This document shows, piece after piece, positions 44,103 to 59,641 of a stretch of 64,000 nucleotides of DNA. Each line of letters starts with the position of its first letter. Within the stretch, counting starts at the first letter, position 1. The stretch is from the NCBI RefSeq assembly GCF_017352195.1, contig NZ_CP071445.1, positions 1,116,001-1,180,000 of the forward strand. The letters are read 5' to 3'. Below the pieces are notes generated by a model. It made no database searches, was not told the DNA's origin, and saw only the letters and a list, made by a program, of their open reading frames with translations. Both the position numbers and the translations under genes were made by a program. The DNA is from Sedimentibacter sp. zth1 (lineage in GTDB: Bacteria > Bacillota > Clostridia > Tissierellales > Sedimentibacteraceae).

Positions 44103-44176
44103 TGGAGGCGCCACCCAGATTTGAACTGGGGATGAGGGTGTTGCAGACCCGTACCTTACCACTTGGCTATAGCGCC
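44103..44176 (-). tRNA. tRNA-Cys (GCA)
   Basis: Loop CTGCAAC (GCA), encoded CCA; last in the rrn3 array. Confidence 0.95.
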
Positions 44177-44193
44177 TTAATAATATAAAAAAA

Positions 44194-44271
44194 TGGGGTA
44201 AATAGTGGGAATCGAACCCACGACCTCCAGAGTCACAATCTGGCGCGCTAGCCGACTGCGCTATATCTACC
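44194..44271 (-). tRNA. tRNA-His (GTG), A37 form
   Basis: Loop TTGTGAC (GTG), extra G at -1 opposite C73, encoded CCA. The second copy at 58437 differs at positions 9 and 37. Confidence 0.93.
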
Positions 44272-44280
44272 ATAATTTTT

Positions 44281-44354
44281 TGGAGCGGGTGAAGGGAATC
44301 GGACCCTCGCAACCAGCTTGGAAGGCTGGGGCTCTACCACTGAGCTACACCCGC
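44281..44354 (-). tRNA. tRNA-Gly (TCC) with C55
   Basis: Loop CTTCCAA (TCC), encoded CCA. The T loop reads TCCGATT, so the near-universal T55 (pseudouridine) is C. Confidence 0.93.
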
Positions 44355-44386
44355 ATTATATGCGTTTTAATATTTTCTGTTACTTT

Positions 44387-44461
44387 TGGAGCGGAAGACG
44401 AGATTCGAACTCGCGACCCTCGCCTTGGCAAGGCGATGCTCTACCACTGAGCCACTTCCGC
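44387..44461 (-). tRNA. tRNA-Gly (GCC)
   Basis: Loop TTGCCAA (GCC), encoded CCA, normal TTCGAAT T loop. Confidence 0.95.
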
Positions 44462-44475
44462 ATTTTAAACTTAAT

Positions 44476-44560
44476 TGGTGGGAAGGACTGGATTCGAACC
44501 AGTGAAGGCGTTGCCAACGGATTTACAGTCCGTCCCCTTTAGCCACTCGGGAACCCTCCC
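44476..44560 (-). tRNA. tRNA-Tyr (GTA)
   Basis: Class II, loop CTGTAAA (GTA), long variable arm, encoded CCA. Confidence 0.95.
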
Positions 44561-44581
44561 ATATTATGTTTTTATTGAAAA

Positions 44582-44658
44582 TGGCGACTTGGATGGGGTT
44601 CGAACCCACGACCTCCAGCGTGACAGGCTGGCATTCTAACCAACTGAACTACCAAGCC
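44582..44658 (-). tRNA. tRNA-Asp (GTC)
   Basis: Loop CTGTCAC (GTC), encoded CCA. Confidence 0.95.
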
Positions 44659-44677
44659 ACATTCAATTTTATAAAAA

Positions 44678-44753
44678 TGGTGGAAACAATAGGGCTCGAA
44701 CCTATGACCCCCTGCTTGTAAGGCAGATGCTCTCCCAACTGAGCTATGCTTCC
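44678..44753 (-). tRNA. tRNA-Val (TAC)
   Basis: Loop CTTACAA (TAC), encoded CCA; same as the copy at 28047. Confidence 0.95.
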
Positions 44754-44771
44754 ATGTTTTTTATTTTGTAA

Positions 44772-44846
44772 TGGTGACCCTACCGAGACTCGAACTCGGG
44801 TTACTTCCGTGAAAGGGAAGTGTCTTAACCGCTTGACCATAGGGCC
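44772..44846 (-). tRNA. tRNA-Glu (TTC)
   Basis: Loop CTTTCAC (TTC), encoded CCA. Confidence 0.95.
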
Positions 44847-44854
44847 TTTTATTT

Positions 44855-44931
44855 TGGTAGCGGCGAACGGATTTGAACCGCTGACACTGCGGGTATGAAC
44901 CGCATGCTCTAGCCAACTGAGCTACGCCGCC
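44855..44931 (-). tRNA. tRNA-Met (CAT), elongator
   Basis: Loop TTCATAC (CAT), acceptor GGCGGCG, encoded CCA. Sequence style is that of elongator Met rather than the Ile2 type. Confidence 0.9.
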
Positions 44932-44965
44932 ATTCTCGTAATTGTCAGTATTACTTCTATATTTT

Positions 44966-45041
44966 TGGTAGCGGGGACAGGATTCGAACCTATGACCTTC
45001 GGGTTATGAGCCCGACGAGCTTCCAGCTGCTCCACCCCGCG
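44966..45041 (-). tRNA. tRNA-fMet (CAT), initiator
   Basis: Loop CTCATAA, unpaired C1-A72 end (CGCGGGG), GGG/CCC anticodon stem typical of initiators, encoded CCA. Confidence 0.95.
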
Positions 45042-45057
45042 ACAATTTAATTTAAAA

Positions 45058-45146
45058 TGGTACCGAAGACCAGACTTGAACTGGTACGTTCTTTAGGGAA
45101 CGCAGGATTTTAAGTCCTGTGCGTCTGCCAATTCCGCCACTCCGGC
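45058..45146 (-). tRNA. tRNA-Leu (TAA)
   Basis: Class II, loop CTTAAAA (TAA), encoded CCA. Confidence 0.95.
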
Positions 45147-45153
45147 ACATTCA

Positions 45154-45228
45154 TGGCTCCGAGGGTGGGGCTCGAACCCACGACCTACCGGTTAACAGCC
45201 GGTTGCTCCACCATTGAGCTACCTCGGA
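45154..45228 (-). tRNA. tRNA-Asn (GTT)
   Basis: Loop CTGTTAA (GTT), encoded CCA; first tRNA after the rrn3 5S. Confidence 0.95.
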
Positions 45229-54791: not shown

Positions 54792-55883
54792 TTATGCTAG
54801 TGCTCTTCCTATATTTTTTACAAAATCTTGTGTATTTGTTACAACTGATGTAGCTGTTAGTGTTCCTCTGTCAGCTAATTTATTTACAGCAAATTCCTGA
54901 ATATCAACTGTATACATGTAAACTGGTCTTATTACACCATCGAATTCATTATAAGACGGTGTCATATTACCAGTGGCAATGGTAAATAAAATTGTTGATA
55001 CCATGATTATTGTTGATGTTTTACGTGCATGCTTACGCATAGCATTCTGTGCTTCATATACGTTATCATATGTTCCTGGCAAAGTAAATCTATCTCTTAC
55101 AGTGCTTGCAAGTACAAATGGAACATTGCATTCAACACAAGCTTTCATTATACCATCCTTTACCTGTCCTGATTTAACGAATGATTCTATTGAGCCCGCT
55201 TCTCTAACCATATTTATTGTTTCATAATAATTTTCATATGTATTCTGTTCTCTTCTAAATACCTTTTGTCCCCATGTAGTACCAAATGTTCCACATTCTA
55301 AATCAAAAGCTGCAAGGCTTGTACCACAAAGTATAGCATTTACATATCCTTCTCTAATAAGTCTTTCCATAGCATTTCTTGTATCTTCATCAAGACTTAT
55401 AGCTGTACCTAAAACCCATGTAACATAACCATTCTTAGCTTTTTCATGTTTAAGAATTTCATAAAGTTGGTCATAGTCAATGCTAAATGCAGTTTCTCTT
55501 GATCTACCGCTTCTAAAAGCAAATGTATCAGAATCATGTGATTTATTAACAAATCCTTGAGTATACATATAAATTCCTTGACTTCCATCTTCTGTTCTAC
55601 CAATAACTACTTTATCGCCAACTTTTAAATTTCTAAATTCTACTATATTTACAGATTCTTTTCCCATTTCATCATATGCCACACAAACTGTATCCATTCT
55701 ACTTTCAGTAGCCAAAACCCATTTATTATTAATTTTAAAATATTCAGGAAAAACAGACAATGCATGATAATTAGCTGGAGAAACTCCATCCTTAACTACC
55801 TCCACCAAAGTGGCATTTGGTGCATTTATGAAAATTTCTTGGTTAAAGTCAGGTGGTGTATATTTAGGAATATTTAATGCCAT
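54792..55883 (-). CDS. Archaeal-type ornithine cyclodeaminase-like protein (LOR/SDH family), copy B
   Basis: 363 residues, start ATG after AAAGGAGGAAA. The N-terminal half is a beta-rich domain (V-K-D-G-V-S-P-A-N-Y; K-V-G-D-K-V-V-I-G). The C-terminal half is the Rossmann-type domain of the TIGR00300/LOR-SDH group: G-Y-V-N-A-I-L-C-G-T-S-L-A-A-F-D-L-E, R-E-A-G-S-I, C-N-V-P-F-V-L-A-S-T-V-R-D-R and a late V-Y-M-Y-T-V-D. An archaeal relative is known as ornithine cyclodeaminase (family knowledge), as is the C-terminal half of cyanobacterial arginine-dihydrolase fusions. R-D-D-G-P-L-P of copy A is R-D-R-F-T-L-P here, so activity may differ. It begins directly after the stop of copy A, so is translationally coupled. 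Confidence 0.65.
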   Translation of the reverse strand: MALNIPKYTPPDFNQEIFINAPNATLVEVVKDGVSPANYHALSVFPEYFKINNKWVLATESRMDTVCVAYDEMGKESVNIVEFRNLKVGDKVVIGRTEDGSQGIYMYTQGFVNKSHDSDTFAFRSGRSRETAFSIDYDQLYEILKHEKAKNGYVTWVLGTAISLDEDTRNAMERLIREGYVNAILCGTSLAAFDLECGTFGTTWGQKVFRREQNTYENYYETINMVREAGSIESFVKSGQVKDGIMKACVECNVPFVLASTVRDRFTLPGTYDNVYEAQNAMRKHARKTSTIIMVSTILFTIATGNMTPSYNEFDGVIRPVYMYTVDIQEFAVNKLADRGTLTATSVVTNTQDFVKNIGRALA

Positions 55884-57074
55884 TTATTTTTCCTCCTTTA
55901 TTTTAAGTTCTTTTTCTTTTTCATCTTTTTTTACATTAGTTCTTTCACAGTATTCATTTACATTAACTTCAACGCTTTCAACCTGTAAATCTTCAACTGG
56001 TGTTAACAATGCCTTTTGAACATTTACTACAAAATCCTGTACATTTGTAACTAAAGTCCTTACTGCAATGTTTTCTCTAGCTGCCGCAACTTTATTAACA
56101 ACGTTTTCAGTTACATCAACAGTATACATAAATACTGGAACTATTGCTCCATCTTCTTTTATTCTATAGCTTGATGCTAATTCTGCTGTAGAAACAGAAT
56201 GAAGCATTGTAGCTAAACAAATAACAAGTGTTGCTTTATCAGTTTGCTCTTTAACTGCATTTAAGCCTTTTGAAACATTATGATATACTTCTGGTAATGG
56301 TCCATCATCTCTTATAGAACCAGCTAATACAAATGGTATATCTAATTTATTAAGCGTCTTAATAAATCCATTTTTAACATTACCATCAGCTATAAATTTA
56401 TCTATTGATCCTGCTCTTCTAACCTCATTTAATAAATCCAAGTGATTATAATGTCCCATTGGTTGTGAAACTTGTGTGTAAATATTTTGTCCTAATGCAG
56501 TATCTAAATATCCACCTTCAAGATCATGTGTAGCCATAGCATTACCTGCTAGCAAAGCTTGTACATAACCATTTTCTGCAAGTTGAGATAAACCTATTCT
56601 TGTATCAAAATCAAATACAACTGAAGGTCCTAAAACCCATACTATGTATCCTCCATTTTCTTTTTCATAACGCATAAGGTCGAATAAATAATCATAGTCG
56701 TTAGTAAATGATGTTTCAACAGATTTGCCTGCATGACTAATAACAGCTTCATCAAATCCCTCTCTATAAACTATGACTCCATTTGTTCCATCTGATTCTT
56801 TCCCTAAAACAACCTTGTCTCCTAAAACTAAATCATTTAACTCTTTTATAATAATATCCTCTTTTTGTAAAACAGCTACACAATTCTGTGAATTATGTTT
56901 AGGTAATATCCACCTATTATTGTAATGATAATAAGTAGGTATATGACTAGTTAGATAAAAACCCTTTGGGGATACTCCATCCTTTTTTACTTCGGCTACT
57001 CTTATTTCATTTGCACTTAAGAATTTTTCAGAAGTAAAATCCGGTGGTGTGAACTTTGGTAATTCAAATGCCAT
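55884..57074 (-). CDS. Archaeal-type ornithine cyclodeaminase-like protein (LOR/SDH family), copy A
   Basis: 396 residues, start ATG after AAAGGAGC. Same layout as copy B: V-K-K-D-G-V-S-P-K-G-F, V-L-G-D-K-V-V-L-G, then G-Y-V-Q-A-L-L-A-G-N-A-M-A-T-H-D-L-E, V-R-R-A-G-S-I, L-A-G-S-I-R-D-D-G-P-L-P and M-Y-T-V-D. The R-D-D-G-P-L-P motif is that of the known family, so this copy seems the more canonical. A ~30-residue charged tail (K-K-D-E-K-E-K-E-L) is absent from copy B. The pair may form a heteromer, or one may be a regulatory subunit (inference). Likely substrate ornithine or a related amino acid; not proven. Confidence 0.65.
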   Translation of the reverse strand: MAFELPKFTPPDFTSEKFLSANEIRVAEVKKDGVSPKGFYLTSHIPTYYHYNNRWILPKHNSQNCVAVLQKEDIIIKELNDLVLGDKVVLGKESDGTNGVIVYREGFDEAVISHAGKSVETSFTNDYDYLFDLMRYEKENGGYIVWVLGPSVVFDFDTRIGLSQLAENGYVQALLAGNAMATHDLEGGYLDTALGQNIYTQVSQPMGHYNHLDLLNEVRRAGSIDKFIADGNVKNGFIKTLNKLDIPFVLAGSIRDDGPLPEVYHNVSKGLNAVKEQTDKATLVICLATMLHSVSTAELASSYRIKEDGAIVPVFMYTVDVTENVVNKVAAARENIAVRTLVTNVQDFVVNVQKALLTPVEDLQVESVEVNVNEYCERTNVKKDEKEKELKIKEEK

Positions 57075-57570: not shown

Positions 57571-57614
57571 AAAAAAGCCCACCTTAACTTCATATCAAGA
57601 GGACTTAATGTGCT
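57571..57614 (-). terminator. Terminator of the MGMT gene
   Basis: An imperfect hairpin (AGCACATTAAG...TTAAGGTGGGCT) followed by six T on the minus strand. It begins after the distal TAA stop at 57621, not after the internal TGA, which supports a longer gene. Confidence 0.65.
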
Positions 57615-57620
57615 AATACT

Positions 57621-58076
57621 TTATTTTTCTATTTCCAGTAGATATTTTTTAATATTTAAACCACTTGCATAACCAACCAATGAACCATCGGAACCTATAA
57701 CTCTGTGTCATGGTACTATTATTGATATTGGATTTTTGTTATTTGCCATTCCTACAGCTCTGTATGATTTTGAATTTCCTATAGCAATAGCTATATCTTT
57801 ATAACTTCTCGTTTCTCCATAAGGTATATTTAATAATTCTCTCCATACTTTTTTTTGAAATTCTGTGCCATTTAACATCAATGGAACATTAAATACTTTT
57901 CTTTGTCCATTAAAATATTCCGTTAATTGCTTAACTACTTCATCGGATAATTTTGAATCTTCAATTACTAAATTTTCATAATTATCTACAATAGTTATTG
58001 ATGTTATGTAATCTTTAAAATAAACTATTTTAATTAACCCAACTGGCGAATTAAAGTAAGTATATTTCTCATCCAT
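57621..58076 (-). CDS. ogt: O6-alkylguanine-DNA methyltransferase with in-frame TGA at the active-site Cys (candidate selenoprotein)
   Basis: 151 residues if the TGA at 57708-57710 is decoded as selenocysteine (residue 123). Start ATG at 58076 after GAGAGGCGG. It has the full MGMT layout: N-terminal beta domain, F-Q-K-K-V-W-R-E-L-L, I-P-Y-G-E-T-R-S-Y-K-D-I-A, Y-R-A-V-G-M-A-N-N-K-N-P-I, then I-I-V-P-U-H-R-V-I-G-S-D-G-S-L-V-G-Y-A-S-G-L. The family motif is P-C-H-R; the acceptor Cys is the TGA. The 28 codons after it are intact and reach a TAA with a terminator beyond. A hairpin with a G-starting loop lies 21 nt past the TGA. The alternative is a single C-to-stop mutation (TGC/TGT to TGA). The enzyme transfers alkyl groups from O6-guanine to itself. 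Confidence 0.75.
57669..57698 (-). promoter_or_regulatory. Candidate bSECIS hairpin downstream of the MGMT TGA
   Basis: mRNA stem AUAG-(GUU)-CCGAU, loop GGUUC, AUUGG-(UUGG)-UUAU. The loop starts with G and lies 21 nt after the UGA, within the known bacterial range (about 16-37). Coding constraint could also give a weak hairpin; folding energy was not computed. Confidence 0.55.
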
Positions 58077-58202
58077 TAAATTACCGCCTCTCAATCTTTT
58101 ATACTAATATAATATTATTATATCATGTATTAATTGCTATTTAATATGAAGATATTTTTTTTTGTATTATTATAAGCATTATATATAAAACAATTGAGAA
58201 AT

Positions 58203-58259: not shown

Positions 58260-58336
58260 TGGTGCACCCTAAGGGATTCGAACCCATGACCTTTCGGTTC
58301 GTAGCCGAACACTCTATCCAACTGAGCTAAGGGTGC
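58260..58336 (-). tRNA. tRNA-Arg (ACG)
   Basis: Loop CTACGAA (ACG; A34 would be inosine), encoded CCA. Present only in this array. Confidence 0.95.
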
Positions 58337-58344
58337 ATATAAAT

Positions 58345-58418
58345 TGGAGGCGCCACCCAGATTTGAACTGGGGATGAGGGTGTTGCAGACCCGTACCTTA
58401 CCACTTGGCTATAGCGCC
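58345..58418 (-). tRNA. tRNA-Cys (GCA)
   Basis: Identical to the copy at 44103. Confidence 0.95.
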
Positions 58419-58436
58419 TTAATAATATAAAAAAAA

Positions 58437-58514
58437 TGGGGTAAATAGTGGGAATCGAACCCACGACCTCCAGAGCCACAATCTGGCGCGCTAGCCGACT
58501 GCGCCATATCTACC
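58437..58514 (-). tRNA. tRNA-His (GTG), G37 form
   Basis: Loop TTGTGGC. It differs from 44194 by A9 to G9 and A37 to G37; the rest, including G-1, is the same. Confidence 0.93.
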
Positions 58515-58523
58515 ATAATTTTT

Positions 58524-58597
58524 TGGAGCGGGTGAAGGGAATCGGACCCTCGCAACCAGCTTGGAAGGCTGGGGCTCTACCACTGAGCTACACCCGC
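58524..58597 (-). tRNA. tRNA-Gly (TCC) with C55
   Basis: Same as 44281, including the unusual TCCGATT T loop. Confidence 0.93.
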
Positions 58598-58629
58598 ATT
58601 ATATGCGTTTTAACATTTTTTGTTACTTT

Positions 58630-58704
58630 TGGAGCGGAAGACGAGATTCGAACTCGCGACCCTCGCCTTGGCAAGGCGATGCTCTACCACTGAGCCACTT
58701 CCGC
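58630..58704 (-). tRNA. tRNA-Gly (GCC)
   Basis: Same as 44387. Confidence 0.95.
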
Positions 58705-58718
58705 ATTTTAAACTTAAT

Positions 58719-58803
58719 TGGTGGGAAGGACTGGATTCGAACCAGTGAAGGCGTTGCCAACGGATTTACAGTCCGTCCCCTTTAGCCACTCGGGAACCCT
58801 CCC
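58719..58803 (-). tRNA. tRNA-Tyr (GTA)
   Basis: Same as 44476. Confidence 0.95.
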
Positions 58804-58895
58804 ATATTTTCAGTAAAATTATTTTCCGCAACATGGCTTACGCCGTTGCGTCTTTCGCATTGTGTATTGAAATTACTCCGTAATTTCTGCGAAAA
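58804..58895 (-). repeat. Hairpin module next to tRNA-Thr in the rrn4 array
   Basis: Nested palindrome CGCAAC-AT-GGC-TTAC-GCC-GTTGCG (about 58829-58852) and AAATTAC-TCC-GTAATTT (about 58870-58886). The first matches, in reverse complement, the one in the rrn3 leader insert. It and tRNA-Thr together are absent from the rrn3 array. Confidence 0.7.
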
Positions 58896-58971
<76 letters not shown>

Positions 58972-58994
58972 ATGTATCTTGTTTTTATTGAAAA

Positions 58995-59071
58995 TGGCGA
59001 CTTGGATGGGGTTCGAACCCACGACCTCCAGCGTGACAGGCTGGCATTCTAACCAACTGAACTACCAAGCC
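58995..59071 (-). tRNA. tRNA-Asp (GTC)
   Basis: Same as 44582. Confidence 0.95.
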
Positions 59072-59090
59072 ACATTCAATTTTGTAAAAA

Positions 59091-59166
59091 TGGTGGAAAC
59101 AATAGGGCTCGAACCTATGACCCCCTGCTTGTAAGGCAGATGCTCTCCCAACTGAGCTATGCTTCC
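59091..59166 (-). tRNA. tRNA-Val (TAC)
   Basis: Same as 44678. Confidence 0.95.
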
Positions 59167-59184
59167 ATGTTTTTTATTTTGTAA

Positions 59185-59259
59185 TGGTGACCCTACCGAG
59201 ACTCGAACTCGGGTTACTTCCGTGAAAGGGAAGTGTCTTAACCGCTTGACCATAGGGCC
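59185..59259 (-). tRNA. tRNA-Glu (TTC)
   Basis: Same as 44772. Confidence 0.95.
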
Positions 59260-59267
59260 TTTTATTT

Positions 59268-59344
59268 TGGTAGCGGCGAACGGATTTGAACCGCTGACAC
59301 TGCGGGTATGAACCGCATGCTCTAGCCAACTGAGCTACGCCGCC
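59268..59344 (-). tRNA. tRNA-Met (CAT), elongator
   Basis: Same as 44855. Confidence 0.9.
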
Positions 59345-59378
59345 ATTCTCGTAATTGTCAGTATTACTTCTATATTTT

Positions 59379-59454
59379 TGGTAGCGGGGACAGGATTCGA
59401 ACCTATGACCTTCGGGTTATGAGCCCGACGAGCTTCCAGCTGCTCCACCCCGCG
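59379..59454 (-). tRNA. tRNA-fMet (CAT), initiator
   Basis: Same as 44966. Confidence 0.95.
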
Positions 59455-59470
59455 ACAATTTAATTTAAAA

Positions 59471-59559
59471 TGGTACCGAAGACCAGACTTGAACTGGTAC
59501 GTTCTTTAGGGAACGCAGGATTTTAAGTCCTGTGCGTCTGCCAATTCCGCCACTCCGGC
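59471..59559 (-). tRNA. tRNA-Leu (TAA)
   Basis: Same as 45058. Confidence 0.95.
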
Positions 59560-59566
59560 ACATTCA

Positions 59567-59641
59567 TGGCTCCGAGGGTGGGGCTCGAACCCACGACCTA
59601 CCGGTTAACAGCCGGTTGCTCCACCATTGAGCTACCTCGGA
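59567..59641 (-). tRNA. tRNA-Asn (GTT)
   Basis: Same as 45154; first tRNA after the rrn4 5S. Confidence 0.95.

Follow-up and report, generated by a model that had tools for sequence, protein, structure and literature searches.

Redox functions are attributed to most of the selenoproteins known so far (PMC9312934), and the selenoprotein catalogues also hold a DNA repair protein. A selenocysteine (Sec)-containing methylated-DNA-protein-cysteine methyltransferase (COG0350/PF01035, example ABB14497) is catalogued as a predicted selenoprotein (PMC9312934, PMC13188914), with one Sec sequence tabulated against 2,879 Cys sequences (PMC2398784), and PMC9312934 cites Zhang and Gladyshev 2007 (Olavius symbiont) for it. 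Sec has also been engineered into human alkylguanine-DNA alkyltransferase (AGT): the Sec145 protein shields E. coli deleted for ada and ogt against MNNG, and the Asn137Ala (N137A) change is tolerated with Sec145 but not with Cys145 (PMC4150793). In most alkyltransferase-like (ATL) proteins the motif is PWHRV, with Trp at the acceptor site (PMC10779285), and these proteins bind O6-alkylguanine and pass the lesion to nucleotide excision repair. The literature searched contained no experimental work on a Sec alkyltransferase occurring in nature and, in the passages available, no report of its breadth, of repeated gain or loss, or of a Sec gene as the sole copy. The passages of PMC12013277 searched do not contain 'methyltransferase', and no word starting with 'selen' occurs in the body of a review on alkyltransferases from 2023. 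We here analyse a gene predicted to be of this kind from Sedimentibacter sp. zth1, located in a 64,000-nt stretch of DNA (the window). An earlier note, made from the letters of the window, had proposed a Sec at the catalytic position and had suggested that Sec-containing MGMT homologues are mentioned in selenoproteome surveys; the family does stand in tables of PMC9312934, PMC13188914 and PMC2398784. The gene belongs to a known, little-studied family of predicted selenoproteins, and the class itself is not new.

The gene and the selenocysteine machinery of its genome

The minus-strand frame 58076..57621 holds 152 codons including its TAA, and its sole internal stop is a TGA at codon 123, exactly at the acceptor Cys of the P-C-H-R motif. 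The features of the locus are the following.

57621..58076, minus strand: O6-alkylguanine-DNA alkyltransferase (MGMT/Ogt) gene, predicted Sec form, ATG to TAA, 151 residues, Sec123, from profile and fold matches
57708..57710, minus strand: TGA codon 123, predicted to be read as selenocysteine, acceptor of P-U-H-R; TGA in 24 genes versus Cys in 74 homologues
57677..57691, minus strand: SECIS-like hairpin CCGATG-GTT-CATTGG (or CCGAT-GGTTC-ATTGG), with a G-led loop 21-22 nt past the TGA
about 57575..57606, minus strand: terminator-like stem-loop, then a T run, from a 60-nt fold of 57620-57561 (-11.6 kcal/mol)
58077..58094, minus strand: possible ribosome-binding region (GAGGCGG) before the ATG at 58076, by eye

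The earlier note had read the locus in the same way, as a frame with a single in-frame stop on the acceptor codon, 28 further codons up to a TAA with an intact C-terminus, a hairpin with a G-led loop 21 nt past the TGA and a terminator after the TAA. Each of these was recovered: the stop is at 57710-57708, the C-terminus is not decayed, the hairpin (57691-57677) starts its loop 22 (or 21) nt on, and the stem-loop with its T run is present, though the consensus scan does not list it. In the list of open reading frames, a TTG at 58094 is an alternative in-frame start.

The read-through protein matches PF01035 with 117.3 bits (cut-off 27) over residues 72-151, spanning both sides of the TGA, TIGR00589 with 117.5 bits (cut-off 46.4), and PF02870, the N-terminal ribonuclease-like domain, with 40.6 bits (cut-off 21) over residues 4-67. 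Because a TGA and not a Cys codon stands at the PCHR acceptor, we class the gene as a predicted Sec form and not as an ordinary Cys enzyme. By sequence the nearest solved relative is M. tuberculosis OGT (3.4e-36; PDB 4bhc, 4wxc), and the predicted fold matches solved MGMTs (TM 0.85 to M. tuberculosis OGT). The AlphaFold model is moderate, with a mean pLDDT of 76.3 and values below 50 for residues 127-138, just past the acceptor site, so active-site distances were not taken from it. In a 12-row alignment of Sec proteins, N115 (eight residues ahead of the acceptor), H124 (after the acceptor) and E150 (the C-terminal Glu) are invariant. We take them to correspond to Asn137, His146 and Glu172 of human AGT.

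The genome, a single contig of 3.13 Mb, carries selA, selB, selC (tRNA-Sec) and selD, the set expected of a selenoprotein-making bacterium and the check that the earlier note had proposed. All four lie together, within about 5.5 kb of each other. The tRNA-Sec gene (C1:1213061-1213154; 63.4 bits, cut-off 47) fits its Rfam family over the full length, with UCA in the anticodon loop. Beside it are SelB (401.6 bits, cut-off 242.25), SelA (615.7 bits, cut-off 267.9) and SelD (378 bits, cut-off 125), all by TIGR curated cut-offs. The selD gene (L070:12479-13522, minus) has its own in-frame TGA, in the context T-A-G-U-A-A-K-I-G, and so has the gene for the glycine reductase subunit GrdA. Since the machinery is present together with in-frame TGA codons in selD and GrdA, Sec decoding of UGA is to be expected in this cell.

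Two further observations concern the surroundings of the gene. Just downstream (54792-57074) are two adjacent minus-strand genes of 363 and 396 aa, whose products look similar by eye. The window also holds two long tRNA arrays in nearly the same order beside 5S genes (44103-45228 and 58260-59641), three shorter tRNA arrays and, within the 64 kb, four 23S rRNA genes.

Recurrence and history of the TGA codon

Profile and protein searches, together with a DNA pattern, yielded 24 distinct genes in which precisely this codon is TGA, 23 of them besides that of the window. They comprise this gene, four of the Soehngenia group, three in one deltaproteobacterial clade (L058, L065, L066), L104, eight of Nitrospirota and seven of Fusobacteriaceae, so that the groups beyond the source genus are Soehngenia, Fusobacteriaceae, Nitrospirota and two deltaproteobacterial lineages. 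Soehngenia belongs to the Tissierellales of the Bacillota. The in-frame TGA aligns with the Cys of homologues, as expected of a bacterial selenoprotein.

Closer to home the picture is different. In the family, 25 of 27 genomes have a match by profile search and only the window's own has the TGA; the 24 matching genomes among the other 26 contain 27 genes, each of which is free of internal stops and has Cys as the acceptor. There is no second genome of the same genus among the 27. The homologue alignment that the earlier note called for gave a divided answer: TGA recurs in 23 other genes, including all four of the Soehngenia group, and the 27 other genes of the family all carry Cys. Because they do, the Sec form appears to be lineage-specific, which speaks partly against the Sec reading.

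In the order, 229 of 249 genomes match and, among the matches listed, TGA is found in the window's genome and in all four of genus g79 (G219-G222, the Soehngenia group). A degenerate DNA pattern run over the contig collection gave 12 hits, nine of which are alkyltransferases with TGA at the acceptor codon (the genes of G220 and G222 again among them). The other three (L059, L063, L064) are chance hits with no alkyltransferase in frame. Further Sec genes came from profile searches around three of the pattern-found genomes. Around a Desulfocapsa genome, the search of its order matched 209 of 242 genomes and, among the matches listed, two of four TGA rows have it at the site (G254, G460); the corresponding numbers are 50 of 61 genomes with a match and seven with TGA at the site for Fusobacteriaceae, and 13 of 14 and eight for the Nitrospirota order. 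One more TGA row (L131, G942) is uncounted, as its translated stretch is partly N-masked and gave no site. In the window's class the pattern occurs in one of 391 genomes, the window's own, in a scan that left out the four Soehngenia-group genomes; on this count the Sec form is rare, and by these searches it is concentrated in few lineages. A scan of viral contigs for the DNA pattern gave no hits. Three other candidates for recoding were rejected: in G367 and G430 the acceptor is Cys and the TGA is the ordinary terminator, and G068, listed with an internal TAG, also has Cys at the site.

SelB scores above its cut-off in 22 of the 24 Sec genomes (not in G256 and G933), in five of nine Cys relatives of the same groups and in one of the three genomes with chance pattern hits. 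With two Sec genomes below the cut-off and five Cys relatives above it, SelB alone does not separate Sec from Cys genomes sharply. Matches were counted in 22 Sec genomes, many of them incomplete; in 17 the Sec gene is the sole match to an alkyltransferase, and a second match is found in the window's genome, G219, G460, G933 and G935. In the window's genome this second match (C1:361028-361261, L002) is a very divergent alkyltransferase-like gene with a stop-free 199-aa frame and an intact PCHR, an end branch of 4.71 on the tree and a position about 7 kb from the GrdA gene. Two other neighbourhoods stand out. In both L058 and L065, from deltaproteobacterial genomes, an M-R-P-C-x-C-G-[TGA]-C stretch lies directly upstream of the alkyltransferase start; it could be a further recoded site or belong to the end of another gene. 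In three genomes of the Soehngenia group (L105, L106, L060) the Sec alkyltransferase comes right after a membrane-protein frame of about 255-270 aa, and these frames look alike by eye.

The codons past the TGA carry a trace of selection. Over the 28 post-TGA codons, pN/pS is 0.08-0.33 in nine of ten Sec pairs (0.31 for this gene versus L052) and 0.63, from four changes, in the tenth (L061 versus L069). As some genes enter more than one pair, the stretch is short, and synonymous sites of the distant pairs are close to saturated, these values are a sign, not a measurement, that translation continues past the TGA.

A tree built from 78 homologues requires six changes of the Sec label, at least four of them forced by well-supported branches, and a tree of a chosen subset (38 of 98 rows, with the site masked) requires eight, at least six of them forced. 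The Sec state hence seems to have been gained or lost several times. In the Nitrospirota clade, three Cys genes are scattered among the eight Sec genes. One of these Cys genes, L123 (G937:C131), reads TGT in its PCHR motif, followed by a perfect 7-bp hairpin of SECIS type; with starred support it is sister to the Sec gene L122 (G938), and G937 retains SelB. The simplest reading is a probable recent reversion from Sec to Cys that left a fossil SECIS. In the source genus, represented by one genome, the gain is not datable.

The hairpin downstream of the TGA

The bacterial SECIS (bSECIS) model, as given in passages of PMC13188914, requires a 3-9 nt loop carrying G in its first two positions, a 4-16 bp stem, a spacing of 16-37 nt and a minimum free energy (MFE) of -7.5 kcal/mol or lower. 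The hairpin of this gene fits the geometry, with a 6-bp stem, a 3-nt loop (GUU) and a spacing of 22, or a 5-bp stem, a 5-nt loop (GGUUC) and a spacing of 21. Its MFE is -8.0 kcal/mol for 50 nt past the TGA and -8.7 for 60 nt; four stretches of 40-50 nt give -6.1 to -7.2, and the two longest give -8.3 and -8.7, so that the MFE limit is reached in some stretches only. Equally stable folds are found in 7.8% of 500 synonymous recodings, and 60 of the 2197 TGA triplets in the window (both strands, all frames) have an equally stable hairpin at a spacing of 18-26 nt. In Cys genes of the same order, five of 33 have four or five of the inner five pairs and two of 33 have all five, like this gene. The hairpin is modest and alone would not prove Sec.

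At the GrdA TGA the best model-like hairpins are weak, for example GATTT-GGA-AAATC, with its loop 23 nt on and +0.6 kcal/mol as a bare stem-loop. Measured in this simple way, the hairpin of the alkyltransferase (-3.8) exceeds in stability that of GrdA, an established selenoprotein encoded in this genome; the true element of GrdA may be a different fold. In the SelD gene, the loop of the strongest model-like hairpin begins 33 nt past the TGA.

Taken across the 24 Sec and 74 Cys genes, the hairpin goes far beyond chance, and the conservation that the earlier note had made a test of its proposal is one of position and not of bases. A G-led hairpin of bSECIS geometry is present in all 24 Sec genes, with its loop 18-24 nt past the TGA and a bare stem-loop energy of -2.9 to -13.7 kcal/mol. 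At a spacing of 16-37 nt, the model's own, the median is -7.45 kcal/mol for the 24 Sec genes and -1.65 for the 74 Cys genes (rank test p = 1.3e-7). At 18-26 nt, a range picked after the first folds had been seen, it is -7.45 and 0.0 (p = 7e-13). The former p value is the safer one, and both overstate the difference, as related sequences are not independent. Of the Cys genes, 20 of 74 reach -3.8 kcal/mol at 16-37 nt and nine of 74 at 18-26 nt. This comparison left out the three chance hits, rows with a stop near the site, short rows and duplicates, as well as L131, which has no site. A Gly codon supplies the loop G and is present in Cys genes too; the difference lies in the pairing.

The stem is CCGAU/AUUGG in this gene, GCCAA/UUGGC, CCAGA/UCUGG or ACCAAC/GUUGGU in the Soehngenia group, GUAAGU/ACUUAC in Fusobacteriaceae, GCUCAGC/GCUGGGC in Nitrospirota and CGACG/CGUCG in the deltaproteobacterial clade; the position is, on these sequences, conserved while the stem bases differ by lineage. 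In Fusobacteriaceae the full 6-bp stem is present in all seven Sec genes and in none of the six Cys genes fetched. Synonymous recoding of 12 Sec genes gave fractions of equally stable folds from 0.002 to 0.214; the values for two Fusobacteriaceae genes (0.194 and 0.214) and for this gene (0.078) are not striking singly. The 60-nt MFE is -7.5 kcal/mol or lower in 11 of 12 Sec genes computed (-7.3 for L052), although for some of them (L054, L065) the MFE fold differs from the hairpin described, and the Fusobacteriaceae stem-loops (-2.9 kcal/mol) pass the limit only with the surrounding sequence.

Decoding of codon 123 and comparison with described systems

We consider it very probable that the gene encodes a full-length alkyltransferase with UGA codon 123 decoded as selenocysteine, and the proposal of the earlier note is supported overall at the sequence level. 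Sequence establishes the frame and the machinery, shows that the codon recurs together with a hairpin and, in lineages with pairs, that there is selection past the TGA; we infer Sec insertion itself and a chemical gain from selenium. SelB and tRNA-Sec would decode codon 123 as Sec, directed by the hairpin just downstream. The selenolate would then attack the O6-alkyl carbon of O6-alkylguanine in one turnover, like the thiolate of the Cys enzyme, and the alkyl group would be kept as Se-alkyl-selenocysteine. A selenolate, ionised at neutral pH, should need less help from the active-site network. The Asn matching human Asn137 is kept in all 24 Sec and all 74 Cys genes, under a gene filter that would also have admitted a row with the A-V-G motif but no such Asn. 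This Asn may also serve base binding, or its loss may be hindered by a Sec state that is too recent or too easily reversed.

An extension of this reading, which we regard as improbable, makes UGA 123 a selenium-sensitive three-way switch. With selenium, SelB would insert Sec to give the direct-reversal repair enzyme; without it, most ribosomes would stop at the UGA, and rare near-cognate read-through by tRNA-Trp would give a full-length protein with P-W-H-R, the ATL motif. The idea is thinkable because most ATL proteins have Trp (TGG) where MGMT has Cys (TGY), with UGA between the two, and the selenium supply would then decide whether one gene provides the suicide enzyme or a flag for damage. 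In passages of PMC10779285, however, the Trp-to-Cys change in an ATL does not yield an alkyltransferase, so the two proteins are not simply interchangeable.

That the TGA is a true stop, a nonsense mutation leaving a fresh pseudogene and a useless 122-residue stub, is very improbable. One base separates TGC or TGT from TGA, the genome has the second, stop-free alkyltransferase-like gene, and the genus is represented by one genome in a family that otherwise has Cys. However, such a mutation would have had to fall exactly on the catalytic codon and leave the 28 codons after it intact here, where they are selected in lineages with pairs, in a genome with the sel machinery and at a codon that is TGA, followed by a hairpin, in 23 other genes. 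A sequencing or assembly error at the Cys codon is a very remote prospect: the genus has a single genome and metagenome assemblies are the source of many other Sec genes, but the genome is one 3.13-Mb contig, the same codon recurs in other assemblies, some on contigs above 1 Mb (G219, G927, G931), and a positioned hairpin accompanies the TGA.

Two other decodings have hardly any probability. Reading of UGA as tryptophan would give a PWHR protein resembling the ATL proteins, most of which carry that motif; against this, the N-terminal domain missing in Atl1 is present here (PMC10779285, passages) and the site has TGA and not TGG, so that the gene is no ATL on either count, the long selB and selA frames are free of in-frame TGA, which argues that UGA is not a general sense codon, SelB is encoded, and none of the 98 homologues, a set gathered as MGMT relatives, has Trp at the site (there is no tRNA-Trp gene within the 64-kb window). 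Reading as cysteine by an unusual tRNA would restore an ordinary enzyme, but the tRNA-Sec fits its family with a UCA anticodon, both tRNA-Cys genes in the window read GCA, and SelA and SelD are present.

For the selenocysteine reading, the use to which the residue is put is odd, as a suicide enzyme spends one costly Sec per repaired lesion. The apparent repeated gain or loss, the 7 of 50 Fusobacteriaceae and 8 of 13 Nitrospirota-order matching genomes with the Sec form, and its presence as sole match in 17 of 22 genomes suggest that the selenolate is worth its cost in these lineages. A Sec alkyltransferase would tie DNA repair capacity to selenium supply. Natural Sec/Cys pairs make it testable what Sec gains in a non-redox, single-turnover alkyl transfer, and the hairpin behind the Cys codon of L123 offers a view of a probable Sec-to-Cys reversion.

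Among described systems, the Cys-type Ogt/MGMT enzymes are the closest solved relatives (M. tuberculosis OGT, PDB 4bhc, 4wxc), with an acceptor Cys in place of the predicted Sec. Atl1 (PDB 3gva) shares the DNA-binding domain as a weak match; unlike this gene, Atl1 and the ATL proteins have Trp at the site and are without the N-terminal domain and transfer activity (PMC10779285, passages). Human AGT Sec145 has Sec at the same catalytic position and is active in DNA repair in E. coli, but it was engineered through UAG and EF-Tu and is not natural (PMC4150793, passages); in nature, the Asn that corresponds to its Asn137 is retained in 24 of 24 Sec genes. The catalogued Sec methyltransferase is of the same family and likewise predicted to contain Sec; the catalogue passages give no site, hairpin or experiment for it. 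The comparison is by catalogue entry, the example ABB14497 being from Carboxydothermus hydrogenoformans. To that entry the present analysis adds 24 genes with their hairpins, the selection past the TGA, and the gain or loss of the Sec state.
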